A stretch of 26,432 bases of DNA from a virus. Below are positions 5,473 through 26,229 of the stretch, piece after piece. Below the pieces are notes generated by a model, which was not told the origin of the DNA, did not search any database, and saw only the letters and a list, made by a program, of their open reading frames with translations. Every line of letters begins with the position of its first letter. The first letter of the stretch is position 1. The position numbers and the translations under genes were made by a program. The stretch is taken from positions 1-26,432 of the IMG/VR virus record IMGVR_UViG_3300042197_002851; one strand, given 5' to 3'.

Positions 5473-7326
5473 TTATCTAACAACAGCAAGTGCTTCGGCA
5501 GAGGTTTCAGAAACCACACTTACTCTAACAGAATCGGTGTATGATGGGCTTATTCGTAAAATTTGATTTTCGTTTGCGTAGATGTTTGTGGTTTCTGGTT
5601 CTACAGTAATTATTATGGGGAATGCAGTGGTTTCTATGGTTCGACTGTTTGGTTGAAACTTGGAATTTAAAGTAACTGTTCCCGCAGAGTAATCCACGAC
5701 ACCAATTGAAGGATACACCAGCAAATACTCATCAGCATTGTCTGGATCTTGTCTTACTACGTTAAGGCTTCCAAACCCGTCGTCTTGTATGGAACAATCA
5801 AACTGTAAATTTTCAGATACATCATTATGAGAAAATGTGCTGCTTGTCACGACAAAAACGTGCCCATCGTGCGGATGATAAATGCCGTTTCCAAAATTGA
5901 AAGAAAATGATCTGCTTGCTCTAATGGTTGATACATCACTAGACTTTCTCATTTTTATCTTGCTGTAAACACCAAGCACAGACTTATGAATGTTGTTTAT
6001 TCCCTCTGCCATTTTTGAATAATAAAAGTTTCTGCCAAACTGTTCAACGTTCACAGCAGAATATCCGTATATGTAAGAAATCGCTAGAGTTTTAAGCACA
6101 CCCGGAGATATAGACAAGGTGGACGGGTTGTATATAACTGTGGTGTCAAGAACCAAATCAATGTAATCAGGATCCACTACTTTGGGGGTTATTGTGACAA
6201 TAGAGTTGTTTGATCTAATATCGTTTTCCAAATTTATCTTTTCACTAGTAGTAAGCACTCCACCAGAACTTGGTCGTATAGCAATAAAGACGGTTCCGTA
6301 TTGTGGTGGAACAACAGTTTCTCCCCCGTAAACATTCACGGATGCCACGTTTGGATACTTTTTATACACCAATGCAGCATAATCGTTTTCTGTTACTGCT
6401 CTATTTCCTGTTTGATAGAATTTGGGAGCGTTGTACTTGATGCTACCAGTTGTCTCCCGGTTAGCACCTCCAAAAGTAAAGTCTCCACTTGTTTGAAATT
6501 CTATTGATGAAATAGCAGAATCACTTTTGGTAAACGACTCTACTCCGTTTCCATCGTTTCCATTGGTTTCAAGGTATTCTATTGAAACAACATTTCCTGT
6601 TTCGGGCTGTTCACCTAAAATACCATCACCAAAATACAGTTCGTATATTCCAGCGTCTCGCTCTTGTAAGAAATACACTTTGGAAGTAGGCTCAAGGGTA
6701 AGATAGTCTGCGCCGTAATTCCAAACATCATCAATCCCTGTGGTGTCTGTTATAGACTTGTATACGTTCACCTTTATCGTGCTTATATCTGCTTTATCGT
6801 TTGGTATGATTAAAAACGAACCAATTTTTGTGTCTCTGTTGTAGATATAGGTGATTCGTCTTATAGTTCCTTCGTAAAGATCAAATGGGCCTATTGTAGA
6901 ACTGCCAGCATCAGCAAAAACTGTTTCCAAATTTACAAACTTGTATCGTGTGCCTGCGGGATTAATTCCAGTAAATTCTGTTCCACGAGCAATGTACGTG
7001 TCTGATGTGGCAGGAGCGGTTAGATTTACATTAACCAACCCTTTTGCTGCACGGGTAGAAGACGGCAAATATCCCAATTGTTTTGCGTGAGAAACAATAG
7101 AAGACCTTACCAAAGCACTGTCCAAGAACATCTCGTTGGCAACCATGTTTGAGTAAAATGCTTGGTAGTGTGTATTGTAAGCCAACACATCTAACAAAGT
7201 ATTCAACACAGAACCATCAAAGTTATAGTCTTTCAGAACGCTTTGGTTCTGTAAATACGTTTTCAAAGACTCTTTTATTTGGTCAAAATCCAGATTAACA
7301 ACATTTATAGAGTTGTTTTGTGCCAT
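5473..7326 (-). CDS. gp6: Baseplate wedge protein gp6
   Basis: This 617-aa protein is close in length to T4 gp6 (660 aa), the dimeric wedge subunit that forms the inner baseplate ring. Its N-terminus has the features of the T4-like gp6/baseplate J family: LDFDQIKESLKTYLQ, LNTLLDVLAYNTHYQAFY, ANEMFLDSALVRSSIVSHAK and LGYLPSSTRAAKG. The middle contains YFGDGILGEQPETGN and VTENDYAALVYKKYPNVASV, also typical. The ATG overlaps the last base of the gp25 stop codon (TAATG), so translation is probably coupled. gp25, gp6 and gp53 contact each other in the T4 baseplate, and all three are encoded in this operon. I am confident of the family. Confidence 0.92.
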   Translation of the reverse strand: MAQNNSINVVNLDFDQIKESLKTYLQNQSVLKDYNFDGSVLNTLLDVLAYNTHYQAFYSNMVANEMFLDSALVRSSIVSHAKQLGYLPSSTRAAKGLVNVNLTAPATSDTYIARGTEFTGINPAGTRYKFVNLETVFADAGSSTIGPFDLYEGTIRRITYIYNRDTKIGSFLIIPNDKADISTIKVNVYKSITDTTGIDDVWNYGADYLTLEPTSKVYFLQERDAGIYELYFGDGILGEQPETGNVVSIEYLETNGNDGNGVESFTKSDSAISSIEFQTSGDFTFGGANRETTGSIKYNAPKFYQTGNRAVTENDYAALVYKKYPNVASVNVYGGETVVPPQYGTVFIAIRPSSGGVLTTSEKINLENDIRSNNSIVTITPKVVDPDYIDLVLDTTVIYNPSTLSISPGVLKTLAISYIYGYSAVNVEQFGRNFYYSKMAEGINNIHKSVLGVYSKIKMRKSSDVSTIRASRSFSFNFGNGIYHPHDGHVFVVTSSTFSHNDVSENLQFDCSIQDDGFGSLNVVRQDPDNADEYLLVYPSIGVVDYSAGTVTLNSKFQPNSRTIETTAFPIIITVEPETTNIYANENQILRISPSYTDSVRVSVVSETSAEALAVVR

Positions 7327-19213: not shown

Positions 19214-20161
19214 TTACTCGTCGCCAGCCAACTTCTCAAAGTATGAGAGCGAATCCTCCACCTCGTCATCGGATTCCACCACACGCTTTACCTCTCGCTT
19301 GGGAGCAGGAGGAGCAGCGGGCTTCCGCGTTTGGGGACGCGGGGTTTCATCCTCATCATCAAAAGAGGCAGATTCCGCACCGCCCTTTGCAGCGGACTCG
19401 TTGACAGACGCACGGATATCACCACCGAGAACCTCGTGGAGCCGTGTCTTCAACTCGTCGTAGGACTTGAAATTCTTGGGGTCGGTGAACTCCTTGAGAG
19501 GATGCTGCTTCTTCCACAACTCCTCTAGAGCCTTGTCATCACCACCAAGCAGGGGAGCAGCCCCCGCAAACTCGCTGCGGTCGTAGTTCACATAGCCGTC
19601 CACCTGACGAATCTTCAACTTGAAGTCTGCACCACCCCAGAAGTCAAAAGGATTCAGGGGCTTCTCGTCCTGATACTCAGGATTCATGGCACTCTGAATC
19701 TTCTCAAAAATCTTCTTGCCGTAGCGGAACAGGAACACCTTGCCCTCATTTTCGGGATTCTTGGGGTCATTCACCACCAAGATGTTGCTGACATACGAAA
19801 GGCGACGCTTGCGGTCACGAGCCAACTTCTTGTCATCGTCGCTACCGCTGTTCCACAACTGTGAATTCAGTTCAGAAACCGGATCCTTCAGACCAATGGT
19901 GGTGAGTGAATTCTCAATATACCATCCACCCGGACCGCGGAAACCGTGATTCCACACTCGTGCCCACGGCAGGTCTTCGCCTTCCACAGCAGGCAGGAAA
20001 CGGATTACTGCGTATCCGTTGGAAGCCTTGTCTAGTGCAGGCTTCCAAAAACGGTCGTCCTTGTACGATTCTGAACGCTTGTTCAGTTTCTCCATTTCAG
20101 CCGCAAGCGACTGGTAGGAGGTGGGGGACTTGGAACGGGTCTTCATATCCTTGAAACTCAT
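19214..20161 (-). CDS. gp32: Single-stranded DNA-binding protein gp32
   Basis: This 315-aa protein starts at the ATG at 20161, set by AAGGAG 7 nt upstream. The frame stays open further 5' through a promoter and leader and should not be used. It has cyanophage-type gp32 features: MSFKDMKTRS (LAST-like basic N-terminus for self-association), FWKPALDKASNGYAVIRFLP, HGFRGPGGWYIENSLTT, DPVSELNSQLWNSG, KRRLSYVSNILVV and PFDFWGGADFKLKI for the OB-type core. The C-terminal tail is Pro then Asp/Glu-rich (ESDDEVEDSLSYFEKLAGDE), the usual protein-interaction tail. The protein contains no cysteine, so the zinc site of T4 gp32 (His-Cys3) is missing. It coats ssDNA in replication and recombination. It has its own sigma70-like promoter, and a terminator follows. 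Confidence 0.93.
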   Translation of the reverse strand: MSFKDMKTRSKSPTSYQSLAAEMEKLNKRSESYKDDRFWKPALDKASNGYAVIRFLPAVEGEDLPWARVWNHGFRGPGGWYIENSLTTIGLKDPVSELNSQLWNSGSDDDKKLARDRKRRLSYVSNILVVNDPKNPENEGKVFLFRYGKKIFEKIQSAMNPEYQDEKPLNPFDFWGGADFKLKIRQVDGYVNYDRSEFAGAAPLLGGDDKALEELWKKQHPLKEFTDPKNFKSYDELKTRLHEVLGGDIRASVNESAAKGGAESASFDDEDETPRPQTRKPAAPPAPKREVKRVVESDDEVEDSLSYFEKLAGDE

Positions 20162-20234
20162 GCGTATCTCCTTGTACTTGTTGTACTGTGTGTGTTTGTG
20201 TGTAGACGAACAATTCAGACACAGGTATGTAGGT

Positions 20235-20263
20235 ACTATACCACACACCCTGTGGGATGTCAA
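20235..20263 (-). promoter_or_regulatory. Sigma70-like promoter of gp32
   Basis: Read on the minus strand, TTGACA (20258-20263), a 17-nt spacer and TATAGT (20235-20240) give a near-consensus promoter. Transcription would begin near 20228, leaving a leader of roughly 65 nt that is rich in CA repeats before the gp32 ATG. It lies just inside the gap after gp33, so gp32 can be made independently early in infection. Confidence 0.8.
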
Positions 20264-22457: not shown

Positions 22458-23318
22458 TTAGGAGTTCTGTGAGTCTAATTCCTCAAAAATTGTAATCCAC
22501 TTAGGGTCTTCTCCACGACGCAGATACGCAGCCTTTGCAAAATTCCAATCTTCTCGTTCCTGAATACGATAACCAGTCTTGTGCTTTTTGGCGTATCTAA
22601 TGGCAGATTCTTTGTCTTGAAAATACTCGTAATTGCCCTCACTGTCCATTGCTCCCCACAGTCCACTAGACGTTTTCCACACGTCTCCTGCACGGTGTCG
22701 CTGTGCACTCACAGTGGTTTCACCACTCTTTTCTTGTTCGCCGCCCTGCTGTGGTTCGTCCTTAACATTAAAAACAAACTTCTTGCCGCTGTGTGGGCCT
22801 TTGCGTAGTTGTGAAAAGAATTGGACCACCTTGTGCTTGGCTAGTTCCAGGTTGTTTTGTCCTTCGCCCTTCTTGAATCGCATAAGCACCTTGCCAATAC
22901 CAGCACTTTCGTTAGTGCCGATATAGTAAAAGTCTTGGTCGTTCTTGTACATGACCGAGTGTTGCTTGTAGTGGCGACCCAACTTGACGATTTCTTCCTT
23001 CTTGATGTTGGGAATGAGCAGACTCAACTCCTCAACCACACCACCTTCCTCTTGGTAGCCGCCCTTCATCTCAATGTAACCGTATCCCATGTCGCGGACA
23101 CGCTTCTTGAGGTCATCGTGGAGTTTCTTGTTCTCTTCACGAGAGTTTTCACCACGAAAAGCACTCACAATACCAAAATCTTTGCTGTCGTCTTCCACAT
23201 ACTGGAACACGCGGGACAGTTTGGCTTCAACCAGAGGGGTTTCAGCGGCTTCGCGGCGTGAAAGCCACTCGTTTAGTCCGTTTTGGTCAAGGTACTGTGA
23301 GAATTTCTTCATTTTCAT
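22458..23318 (-). CDS. DUF3293-like phage protein with C-terminal GDVWKT motif domain
   Basis: This 286-aa protein has a central region (about 47-135: FGIVSAFRGENSREENKKLH, MGYGYIEMKGGYQEEGG, VEELSLLIPNIKKEEIVKLG, FYYIGT) that resembles DUF3293 proteins, whose biochemical function is unknown. A Gln/Glu-rich linker leads to a small C-terminal module (RAGDVWKTSSGLWGAMDSEG, YEYFQDKESAIRYAKK) of a type that recurs as an add-on in phage proteins. Two ATGs are possible (23318 and 23312). GGAG is 4 nt from the first and 10 nt from the second, so the start is uncertain by two residues. The gene overlaps the 3' end of the deaminase-like gene by 32 nt. The N-terminal KKFSQYLDQN helix also resembles starts of other phage-encoded proteins. 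Confidence 0.62.
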   Translation of the reverse strand: MKMKKFSQYLDQNGLNEWLSRREAAETPLVEAKLSRVFQYVEDDSKDFGIVSAFRGENSREENKKLHDDLKKRVRDMGYGYIEMKGGYQEEGGVVEELSLLIPNIKKEEIVKLGRHYKQHSVMYKNDQDFYYIGTNESAGIGKVLMRFKKGEGQNNLELAKHKVVQFFSQLRKGPHSGKKFVFNVKDEPQQGGEQEKSGETTVSAQRHRAGDVWKTSSGLWGAMDSEGNYEYFQDKESAIRYAKKHKTGYRIQEREDWNFAKAAYLRRGEDPKWITIFEELDSQNS

Positions 23319-23730
23319 CGTTCTCCTGTCGGGGTTTCACTATATTTAGCGGAAAAAGGGTGTTGCCGTGCAGCATTACCCCCTCATTTGTGGTGTACCA
23401 AATCTCTGAAAACGCCCCGTAGCACCACGGCATGCACCGTTCGCACGGTCTTGCCATCCGCATCTGCCCCAAACTGTTGAATCGCACATTAAACAGCACC
23501 AAATCGCGTTCAGGAGCGTCCAATTTCAAAAATGCGTCTAATTCAGAGTGCATTTCTTCAAACATGTACCCCTTTTCCTTTGCAACAGGGTGAGTTTTGA
23601 AGCGATTGCACCCGATAGACACAATTCGACCCTTACGAAGAATGATAGAAATGTGCTTTTTCTGCCGCTTGATCCTTAAGCAAAGCGGATAAGCGTATTC
23701 CAAAAGTCTTTGAAGTCGCTTGGCGTTCAT
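23287..23730 (-). CDS. Cytidine/deoxycytidylate deaminase-like protein
   Basis: The protein has 147 aa from the ATG at 23730. A TTG at 23739 is an alternative. The zinc-deaminase signature is complete: H61-S-E63 (MHSELDAF) with the catalytic Glu, and P95-C-x-x-C99 (RPCERCMPW), separated by 35 residues. The segment before (ISIILRKGRIVSIGCNRFKTHP) gives the usual beta strands and asparagine turn of the fold. Enzymes of this fold deaminate dCMP, free cytidine or bases in RNA or DNA. T4 gp cd is a dCMP deaminase of 193 aa. This shorter protein lacks a visible allosteric region, so substrate is uncertain. No Shine-Dalgarno site is obvious, and a terminator lies directly upstream, so how it is transcribed is unclear. 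Confidence 0.72.
   Translation of the reverse strand: MNAKRLQRLLEYAYPLCLRIKRQKKHISIILRKGRIVSIGCNRFKTHPVAKEKGYMFEEMHSELDAFLKLDAPERDLVLFNVRFNSLGQMRMARPCERCMPWCYGAFSEIWYTTNEGVMLHGNTLFPLNIVKPRQENDENEEILTVP
23340..23349 (-). promoter_or_regulatory. Possible late-type promoter motif before the DUF3293-like gene
   Basis: CTAAATATAG on the minus strand lies 21 nt before the 23318 ATG, with CAGGAG between. It resembles the T4 late element in its TAAATA core but departs at the first bases. It sits inside the 3' end of the deaminase gene. Confidence 0.3.
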
Positions 23731-24725: not shown

Positions 24726-25718
24726 TCAAATAGTCTCGGGACTATCTGAAAAGCGAACATCGTGCAGTTCAGGAACTCCACCACACGACAACTCACAAAC
24801 CAAATACACTTTGAATTCACCCAAATCCTTGAATTCAACAATTTCGCCGTTATGAATTACTTTAAACACACCAACCCTAGTCAACACATCGCACTTGTTG
24901 ATAATTATTTGAGTGCAGCCTGAAAGGTTTGCTGCCGCAATCAACTTGTCTAGATTCAACCAATTTGCAAGTCGCTTGCGACCTGTGGTTGTGCCGTATT
25001 CGCCGCCTTCACGAATAAGCCTGTCAATCTGCGGGTCTTCCCAAAGCGTTTCAGGAAACAGGGGGTCAACACCACTCTTGGTGTCGTAGGCTTTGGCTAC
25101 ACCGATTATCTGTCCGATTCTGCGAGGTGTAAAACCCAAAGAGCAAGCACTATAAGGGAGAGTGTTGCTAGAAGTAACATACGGGTAGTCTCCGTGGTCT
25201 ATGTCTAGCCAAACACTCTGTGCTCCTTCGCACAGAACTCGTCCGCTCATCTTGCCGTCCCAAAGCCAATCAGAAATGAAATACTCTGCTGCTCGTCGTC
25301 CACGACGCAGCATCTTGTCTGCGTAGCACGGAGCAATTCCTTGTCCTGTGGTTCCCAAGTGACTCAAATTCTGTTTGTCGTAAGCAATATGCTCTTCTGT
25401 AATTATATGAGCAGCAGGAGAAATCTTGACAAGACTTGTATCAAATCCTTCACTACGGAGGTAGCGAATCTCTTCAAAGAACTTGTCGGTATTGATTACA
25501 CACCCTGGCCCAATCACACACGGCTTGCCTGCGAAAATGCCTGAAGGGACAATATGGGTCTTGTGCTTCTTGCCGTTCACCCACACGGTGTGACCCGCGT
25601 TTGGACCGCCGTTCCAACGGCACACCCAATCGTATCGGGGAGCCATTGCAGCAGACACCTTGCCCTTGCCTTCGTCACCCCATGCCAAACCGTATACCAC
25701 ATCAACGCTGGCAATCAT
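24726..25718 (-). CDS. Adenylosuccinate synthetase family enzyme (PurA/PurZ-like), short phage form
   Basis: This 330-aa protein has the full catalytic set of the family: G14-DEGKGK loop with Asp15, NAGHT with His43, GTTGQGIAPCYADK (122-135), EGAQ (164-167), DIDHG and PYVTSSNT (172-186), TTTGRKR (243-249) and the guanine-binding NKCD (274-277). PurA joins IMP and aspartate using GTP. Phage PurZ uses dGMP to make the precursor of 2-aminoadenine (Z) DNA. In described PurZ such as that of phage phiVC8 the loop Asp is replaced by Ser (GSTGKG). Here Asp is kept, favouring PurA chemistry or an intermediate PurZ0 type. E. coli PurA has 432 aa. This protein is near archaeal length, with a shortened C-terminus. 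GTTGRG reads GTTGQG. It is the last gene of a coupled operon (ATGA overlap). Confidence 0.88.
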   Translation of the reverse strand: MIASVDVVYGLAWGDEGKGKVSAAMAPRYDWVCRWNGGPNAGHTVWVNGKKHKTHIVPSGIFAGKPCVIGPGCVINTDKFFEEIRYLRSEGFDTSLVKISPAAHIITEEHIAYDKQNLSHLGTTGQGIAPCYADKMLRRGRRAAEYFISDWLWDGKMSGRVLCEGAQSVWLDIDHGDYPYVTSSNTLPYSACSLGFTPRRIGQIIGVAKAYDTKSGVDPLFPETLWEDPQIDRLIREGGEYGTTTGRKRLANWLNLDKLIAAANLSGCTQIIINKCDVLTRVGVFKVIHNGEIVEFKDLGEFKVYLVCELSCGGVPELHDVRFSDSPETI

Positions 25719-25969
25719 TGTAGCCCCAATTCTTCGTCTAGTTGTGCGAGGCGGTCAAGTGCTTCCAATCTTTTGCGAAGTTCGTCGTTCTTGTTCGCTA
25801 CCTTTTCGCATACATGACAACTGCCCTCAAAACCTTCTTCAAAGGACTTGACACGATCCTCAAGGCGAACAATCTCTGCATACGCATCAGAAAAAGTACG
25901 AATCACATCGGCGGGCAAATCTGTTCGTTTGCTCTGCTCTCGCAAGTGCATGGCTACATCTTTTTTCAC
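25715..25969 (-). CDS. Coiled-coil protein with CxxC, coupled to PurA-like gene
   Basis: I place the start at a GTG (25969): AAGGAG lies 8 nt upstream and the GTGA overlaps the previous stop. ATGs at 25996 and 25951 are in frame but have poorer context. The 84-aa product is mostly helical: REQSKRTDLPADVIRTFSDA, then YAEIVRLEDRVKSFEEGFEG, a CHVC pair, and ANKNDELRKRLEALDRLAQL. No transmembrane segment is present. The stop overlaps the PurA-like ATG by 4 nt, so synthesis of the two is linked. Function unknown. Confidence 0.65.
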   Translation of the reverse strand: MKKDVAMHLREQSKRTDLPADVIRTFSDAYAEIVRLEDRVKSFEEGFEGSCHVCEKVANKNDELRKRLEALDRLAQLDEELGLQ

Positions 25970-26229
25970 GATTCTTTCTCCTTGAAGCAGTCCCATCCCT
26001 CATCCTTTGCGGTCTGCTGCGCTTCGGCTTGCTCACCATGCTCTGCCATCGCAAAGCAGTAACGCCGCCTCGCCTCATCGCGCTCATGTTGCAACTGCTC
26101 ACACTTTGTCACCAAATCTTCAATGTGAGAAGTAAGTTCTTCAATCGTATCAGCGGCTTCCCGACAACGCAGTTCCACAGAACGGTCGTTGTTGAAAATA
26201 CTGCGTAGCCAATCTACAATATCAGTCAT
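25966..26229 (-). CDS. 87-aa coiled-coil phage protein (MTDIVDWLR type)
   Basis: The start is the ATG at 26229, with AAGGA about 10 nt upstream, and it overlaps the HNH stop (ATGA). The product begins MTDIVDWLRSIF and has ELRCREAADTIEELTSHIED followed by a coiled coil. The MTDIVxxLR-EAADxIE pattern is very common in small phage proteins of many phage types, none with a settled function. It ends DEGWDCFKEKES, and its last codons overlap the GTG start of the next gene. Confidence 0.68.
   Translation of the reverse strand: MTDIVDWLRSIFNNDRSVELRCREAADTIEELTSHIEDLVTKCEQLQHERDEARRRYCFAMAEHGEQAEAQQTAKDEGWDCFKEKES

Follow-up and report, generated by a model that had tools for sequence, protein, structure and literature searches.

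Phages are known to rebalance pyrimidines, as with the dCMP deaminase of phages such as T4, which shifts the nucleotide pool towards the phage base composition, and cyanophages carry genes of early purine synthesis. The described enzymes closest to the one examined here are bacterial adenylosuccinate synthetase (PurA, EC 6.3.4.4), the short PurA of archaea (Pyrococcus horikoshii PH0438, 2d7u/5k7x), and the short, phage-borne PurZ (phages phiVC8 and S-2L) and PurZ0 (Gordonia phage Archimedes and Arthrobacter phage Wayne), which belong to the same superfamily and have Z-base companions. The hallmark of PurZ and PurZ0 is the replacement of Asp13 by Ser, or by Gly in archaeal forms, and Ser occupies this position in all 147 phage PurZ/PurZ0 sequences (PMC12884076). 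A GMP reductase has been described in a deep pelagimyophage, in a report that does not mention purA (PMC7029224), and we found no description of a phage guaC-purA pair in the open-access papers searched.

The window analysed in our study is an entire IMG/VR record of 26,432 bases. Its carrier is a T4-like myovirus, with homologues of gp6, gp25, gp5, gp4, gp2, gp32 and further genes, and its closest kin are cyanophages and Pelagibacter phage HTVC008M. The features discussed below are collected in Table 1, in which residues of the window protein carry their own numbers; elsewhere, numbering follows Salmonella/E. coli PurA, based on an alignment of 94 clade members with reference PurA, PurZ and PurZ0.

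Table 1. Positions of the features of the window, with the evidence for each
Feature	Position	Strand	Evidence or remark
gp6 baseplate wedge, T4-like marker	5473..7326	(-)	phrog_219 E=7e-158; HTVC008M 35%
gp32 single-stranded DNA-binding protein, T4-like marker	19214..20263	(-)	PF08804 E=1.9e-44, phrog_224
S-adenosylmethionine lyase-like protein	22458..23318	(-)	PF23780 E=2e-11
Deaminase-like protein, cytidine/dCMP deaminase type	23287..23730	(-)	MHSELDA ... PCERCMPWC
Shortened PurA-family adenylosuccinate synthetase of 330 aa, starting with ATG	24726..25718	(-)	PF00709, phrog_1211, AF2 model
NKCD, residues 274-277	24888..24899	(-)	Lys275/Asp277 = Lys331/Asp333 (guanine of GTP); Asp in 94/94
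TTGRKR loop, residues 244-249	24972..24989	(-)	Arg247/Arg249 = E. coli Arg303/Arg305; Arg303 equivalent in 94/94
Ribose-contact loop T-K-S-G, residues 213-216	25071..25082	(-)	Lys214/Ser215 replace PurA Arg272/Val273
GDEGKGK loop, residues 14-20	25659..25679	(-)	catalytic Asp15 = E. coli Asp13; Asp in 94/94
Small ORF, 93 aa, upstream of purA	25715..25996	(-)	stop overlaps purA start by 4 bp (ATGA)
Fragment at contig end	26226..26432	(-)	HNH-like CxxC...H pattern

The PurA-family ORF proposed by the sequence-only reading proved to be exact, and its sole Pfam match is Adenylsucc_synt (PF00709, 280 bits, E=3.6e-83), while the best PHROG is phrog_1211 (E=6e-68). Its match covers positions 1-149 and 210-338 of the 416-position profile, so that the protein has lost the central helical insert and a portion of the C-terminus, which accounts for the roughly 100 residues by which the same reading had found it shorter than bacterial PurA. 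The protein shares its predicted fold, all catalytic residues and its clade with bacterial PurA, but differs from it, besides length, in Val273 to Ser, Gly225 to Ser, Arg272 to Lys and the presence of Pro37, a residue found at this position in PurZ and PurZ0 too. The GDEGKGK loop with its Asp was rightly described as intact. The claim that every family motif is kept went too far, as T-K-S-G stands in place of the ribose loop T-R-V-G of PurA, EGAQG has become EGAQS, and the SxGP motif near the C-terminus is not conserved. By its ATGA overlap, purA is probably translationally coupled to the small upstream ORF, which has no family match in Pfam and has homologues in three relatives (L003-L005). 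The fragment at the contig end resembles ORFs in five other loci.

The window protein belongs, on sequence similarity far beyond chance, to a large environmental phage family, with 57 IMG/VR relatives at 41-97 % identity and at least 549 in a broader scan. We read 95 phage purA loci, of which 94 members were alignable for residue counts. Protein length among the 95 was nearly always 328-337 aa, and the motifs recurred throughout (WGDEGKGK in 93, EGAQS in 95, YDTKSG in 95, GPNAGHT in 93 and TTGR[KR]R in 94). Separately, a 735-kb uncultured phage (L099, LR756501.1) encodes a PurA of about 399 aa with a reduced insert and T-R-V-G kept, which in one tree groups with PurA of two Bacteroidota; we regard it as an independent phage acquisition. 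A viral transcript in a Lake Baikal metatranscriptome was assigned to a Pithovirus-like adenylosuccinate synthetase (PMC9611531), and may instead derive from the present phage family.

The active site was found to be of the PurA type, as had been read from the sequence. All 94 clade members keep the catalytic pair Asp13 and His41, Lys16, and the IMP- and Asp-binding residues Asn38, Thr129, Arg143, Gln224, Thr239, Arg303 and Arg305, together with Lys331 and Asp333, the residues of GTP specificity. The catalytic residues and those for GTP, IMP and Asp are likewise kept in 10/10 relatives with an operon-type arrangement. By comparison, Asp13 is replaced by Ser in 2/2 PurZ and 4/4 PurZ0, position 303 is Lys in both, position 331 is Phe or Met, and position 333 is Asn in PurZ, whereas the window clade has Asp. 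The departures from PurA lie elsewhere. Positions 272-273 read KS in 94/94 members of the window clade and RS in 10/10 operon-type relatives. At position 273, all 105 phage sequences have Ser (94 from the window clade, 10 of the operon type and the distant carrier L058), compared with 0/37 of the others aligned; Val is present instead in the cellular (28/28), archaeal (2/2) and PurZ/PurZ0 (6/6) sequences and in the huge-phage PurA. Gly225 to Ser is a further departure in the phage family.

In a maximum-likelihood tree, the phage clade received 100/100 support and fell on the bacterial-PurA side, separated from archaeal short PurA and PurZ/PurZ0 by a 100/100 branch of length 1.33; this placement is to the bacterial side as a whole, without one particular bacterial sister. 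Of the outcomes for which a tree had been proposed, the placement with bacterial PurA was borne out, and a grouping with PurZ or PurZ0 was not. Scores against the NCBIfam PurA models were below the cut-offs (PRK01117 271.9/402, TIGR00184 250.5/395.6, PRK04293 163.6/368), so that by these profiles the protein is PurA-like and divergent, below the curated full-length models. An AlphaFold model built from a 50-row alignment (pLDDT 90.6, pTM 0.90; a single-sequence model with pLDDT 33 was discarded) matched solved PurA best, with a VIA Z of ~39 over 317-320 residues, compared to 35.5 for archaeal PurA, 31.4 for PurZ0 and 29.6-30.7 for ligand-bound PurZ. Archaeal short PurA is of similar length and keeps Asp13, but occupies a separate branch and has EGTQ..LYYGTYPY and TVTGRRRR in place of the phage EGAQ..LDIDHG and TTTGRKR. 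An archaeal origin of the short length was therefore rejected on tree and motifs, which indicate that the likeness to archaeal PurA and PurZ is one of parallel shortening only. Because Asp13, Arg303, Lys331 and Asp333 are kept, the clade is that of bacterial PurA and the model is nearest to PurA, the window protein is probably a shortened PurA of bacterial ancestry, not a Z-base enzyme.

The commonest neighbour of purA, by ORF clustering, was a protein of the IMPDH/GMPR family (58/95 loci), and a whole-contig search found such a gene in 30/40 purA contigs; the other ten, in which no guaC was found, are fragments. In the isolate collection the family occurred in 76/50,697 records, many apparently bacterial contamination. 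GMP-reductase-type genes are also carried by Caulobacter phage Cr30 and Thermus phage phiYS40, which have genomes of low G+C and infect hosts of high G+C. Within the window clade the partner is a GMP reductase (GuaC), upstream on the same strand and 1.1-6.3 kb from purA. Upstream of purA, 714 bp remain before the window contig ends, and 787 bp before the end of the contig of a 97 % relative (L003). Relatives L004-L008 hold guaC either complete or truncated at the end of the contig (L004-L007 are 81-86 % relatives), and L004 and L005, at 85-86 %, have it; the window's own phage presumably carries it as well. When searched in reverse, 33 of the 45 type A guaC loci that had 6 kb of downstream sequence showed purA in the flanks examined, as did 11/11 loci of type C. 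Sixteen contigs whose guaC is of type A or akin to it, among them records 86-197 kb long, show no PurA, and three type C contigs without it are cut by the contig end, with only 87 bp downstream. The pair is thus not obligatory, since there are ten purA contigs without guaC and 16 guaC contigs without purA. These loci are not independent samples, and the count of separate pairings is a better measure than raw percentages.

Three types of partner were distinguished, which sit with different purA subclades. Type A lies next to Salmonella GuaC, to which the phage partner is 57 % identical, differing from the E. coli/Salmonella type in being phage-borne and repeatedly paired with purA. It reached equivalog level for GMP reductase (NF003470/PRK05096, cut-off 397) with 517.6 bits in L032 and 536.7 in L210. 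Type B, which forms a separate branch within that GuaC group, scored 384.6, just under the cut-off, and type C 116.0. The tree puts type C on the side of IMPDH, but the type has no CBS domain and, by eye, no Arg-Tyr flap of IMPDH, which counts towards a GMP reductase. It scores slightly better against curated IMPDH than GMPR models, so that NCBIfam naming leaves it between IMPDH and GMPR, and were it an IMPDH, flow would run towards G. Type C phages also carry nrdA/nrdB near the guaC-purA module. In a sister group (L306-L324) with purA at 50-54 % identity, 10 of the 11 loci have purA and guaC overlapping by 4 bp (ATGA). The guaC of this operon group nests inside type A, whereas the purA beside it branches outside the entire window clade (a split with only 71 % SH-aLRT), and guaC was therefore probably moved and re-paired with purA. 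In a distant carrier (G009) the two genes lie 100 kb from each other. As the partners descend from separate branches (A, B, C and the re-paired A), the gene trees indicate that the pairing arose repeatedly.

Two further genes of the window lie close to purA. The deaminase-like protein occurs within 10 kb of purA in 47/95 loci, with MHSELDA and PCxxC...WC invariant. The family gave a very weak Pfam match only (PF00383, E=0.04 in 1/14 members) and no solved structure was matched by sequence, and it is possibly a new deaminase subfamily. Its weak kin are mostly from cyanophages, some annotated as CMP/dCMP-type deaminases. If it acts on dCMP, then, speculatively, the locus would push C to T as well as G to A. 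The S-adenosylmethionine lyase-like protein, found near purA in 13/95 loci, is a possible anti-restriction gene.

Taken together, we consider it likely that the phage pair of GuaC and short PurA moves G nucleotides to A nucleotides for an A+T-rich genome. The phage GuaC is predicted to convert GMP and NADPH to IMP, from which the window's PurA would form adenylosuccinate with Asp and GTP; host PurB would release AMP, and kinases and ribonucleotide reductase would carry AMP on to dATP. The net effect would be that purine leaves the guanine pool for that of adenine, feeding the genome. No phage PurB was found in 20 contigs searched, which agrees with a supply of this enzyme by the host. We infer activity, substrate and purpose from the sequences, by which the window's PurA, though divergent and shortened, most likely carries out the ordinary reaction. 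The reading fits the base composition of the carriers, which ranges from 25 to 48 % G+C by locus with the lowest median, 29 %, in type C. The earlier suggestion that adenylate comes under the control of a T4-like phage is supported, although the decisive partner, GMP reductase, lies beyond the end of the window and so was out of sight of the sequence-only reading. Against the guanylate-to-adenylate reading stand the sub-threshold PurA scores, the closeness of type C to IMPDH, the loose pairing, the window's own G+C (0.41-0.45, not strongly low), and the substitutions at positions 273 and 225, which it leaves unexplained.

An enzyme of the PurZ or PurZ0 kind, making the precursor of 2-aminoadenine (Z) from dGMP, would have a similar length, and phrog_1211 is labelled 2-aminooxy adenylosuccinate synthetase, yet that family spans PurA-like proteins as well as PurZ. 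We regard this as very improbable, as the window family has Asp13 where PurZ and PurZ0 have Ser, keeps Arg303 where both have Lys, forms a separate clade, and reaches 93 bits against an NCBIfam PurZ cut-off of 300. The sequence-only reading had taken the retained Asp to fit a PurZ0-like enzyme; however, PurZ0 itself has Ser, with GSEAKG in Wayne, Archimedes, Hiyaa and Benry and Ser throughout the published set (PMC12884076). A PurZ0-like identity was accordingly rejected on residue 13, clade and Arg303, and Lys331 is likewise of the PurA type. Of the proposed companion genes, DatZ gave no match in six large contigs, and the T4-like contigs G002-G005 showed no family A polymerase (PolA), having one of family B instead. 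The contigs are possibly incomplete; dUTPase-type matches were seen in G002, G003 and G009, and the distant carrier G009 (locus L058) has a family A polymerase. As a separate observation, three A+T-rich type C carriers (G025, G031 and G040, 121-172 kb) had neither a family A nor a family B DNA polymerase by Pfam.

Two other readings accept a PurA-type enzyme. PurA alone might raise adenylate from host-made IMP, with guaC a frequent auxiliary gene of aquatic phages, and the active site and the contigs holding one gene without the other would agree with this. We think it unlikely, as partners from three separate branches and an overlapping operon built from a transferred guaC argue for functional coupling. 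Less likely still is a module working at the deoxy level, in which the substrates of GuaC and PurA would be dGMP and dIMP derived from the breakdown of host DNA, giving dAMP directly and bypassing ribonucleotide reductase. This was considered mainly for the change of Val273, which lies close to the ribose C2' in PurZ and PurA (PMC8342488), to a Ser confined to the phage sequences; that this change adapts phage PurA to such substrates seems to us equally improbable. Against it, the whole clade retains Arg303, a residue that in PurA balances the ribose O2' (PMC8342488), and type C phages have ribonucleotide reductase genes near the module. If true, a deoxy-level module would be the purine counterpart of dCMP deaminase.

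In summary, we favour a route from guanylate to adenylate, by analogy with phage dCMP deaminase in its concept of a pool shift, but differing in that it would act on purines and with two enzymes. As phrog_1211, by its label a base-Z family, takes in PurA-type phage proteins, automatic annotation overcalls base-Z phages, and surveys that count such phages by phrog_1211 may over-count. The shortened enzyme would represent a further minimal PurA fold, reached from the bacterial side, and a guanylate-to-adenylate route built repeatedly around one short PurA family would show purine balance to be under phage control.
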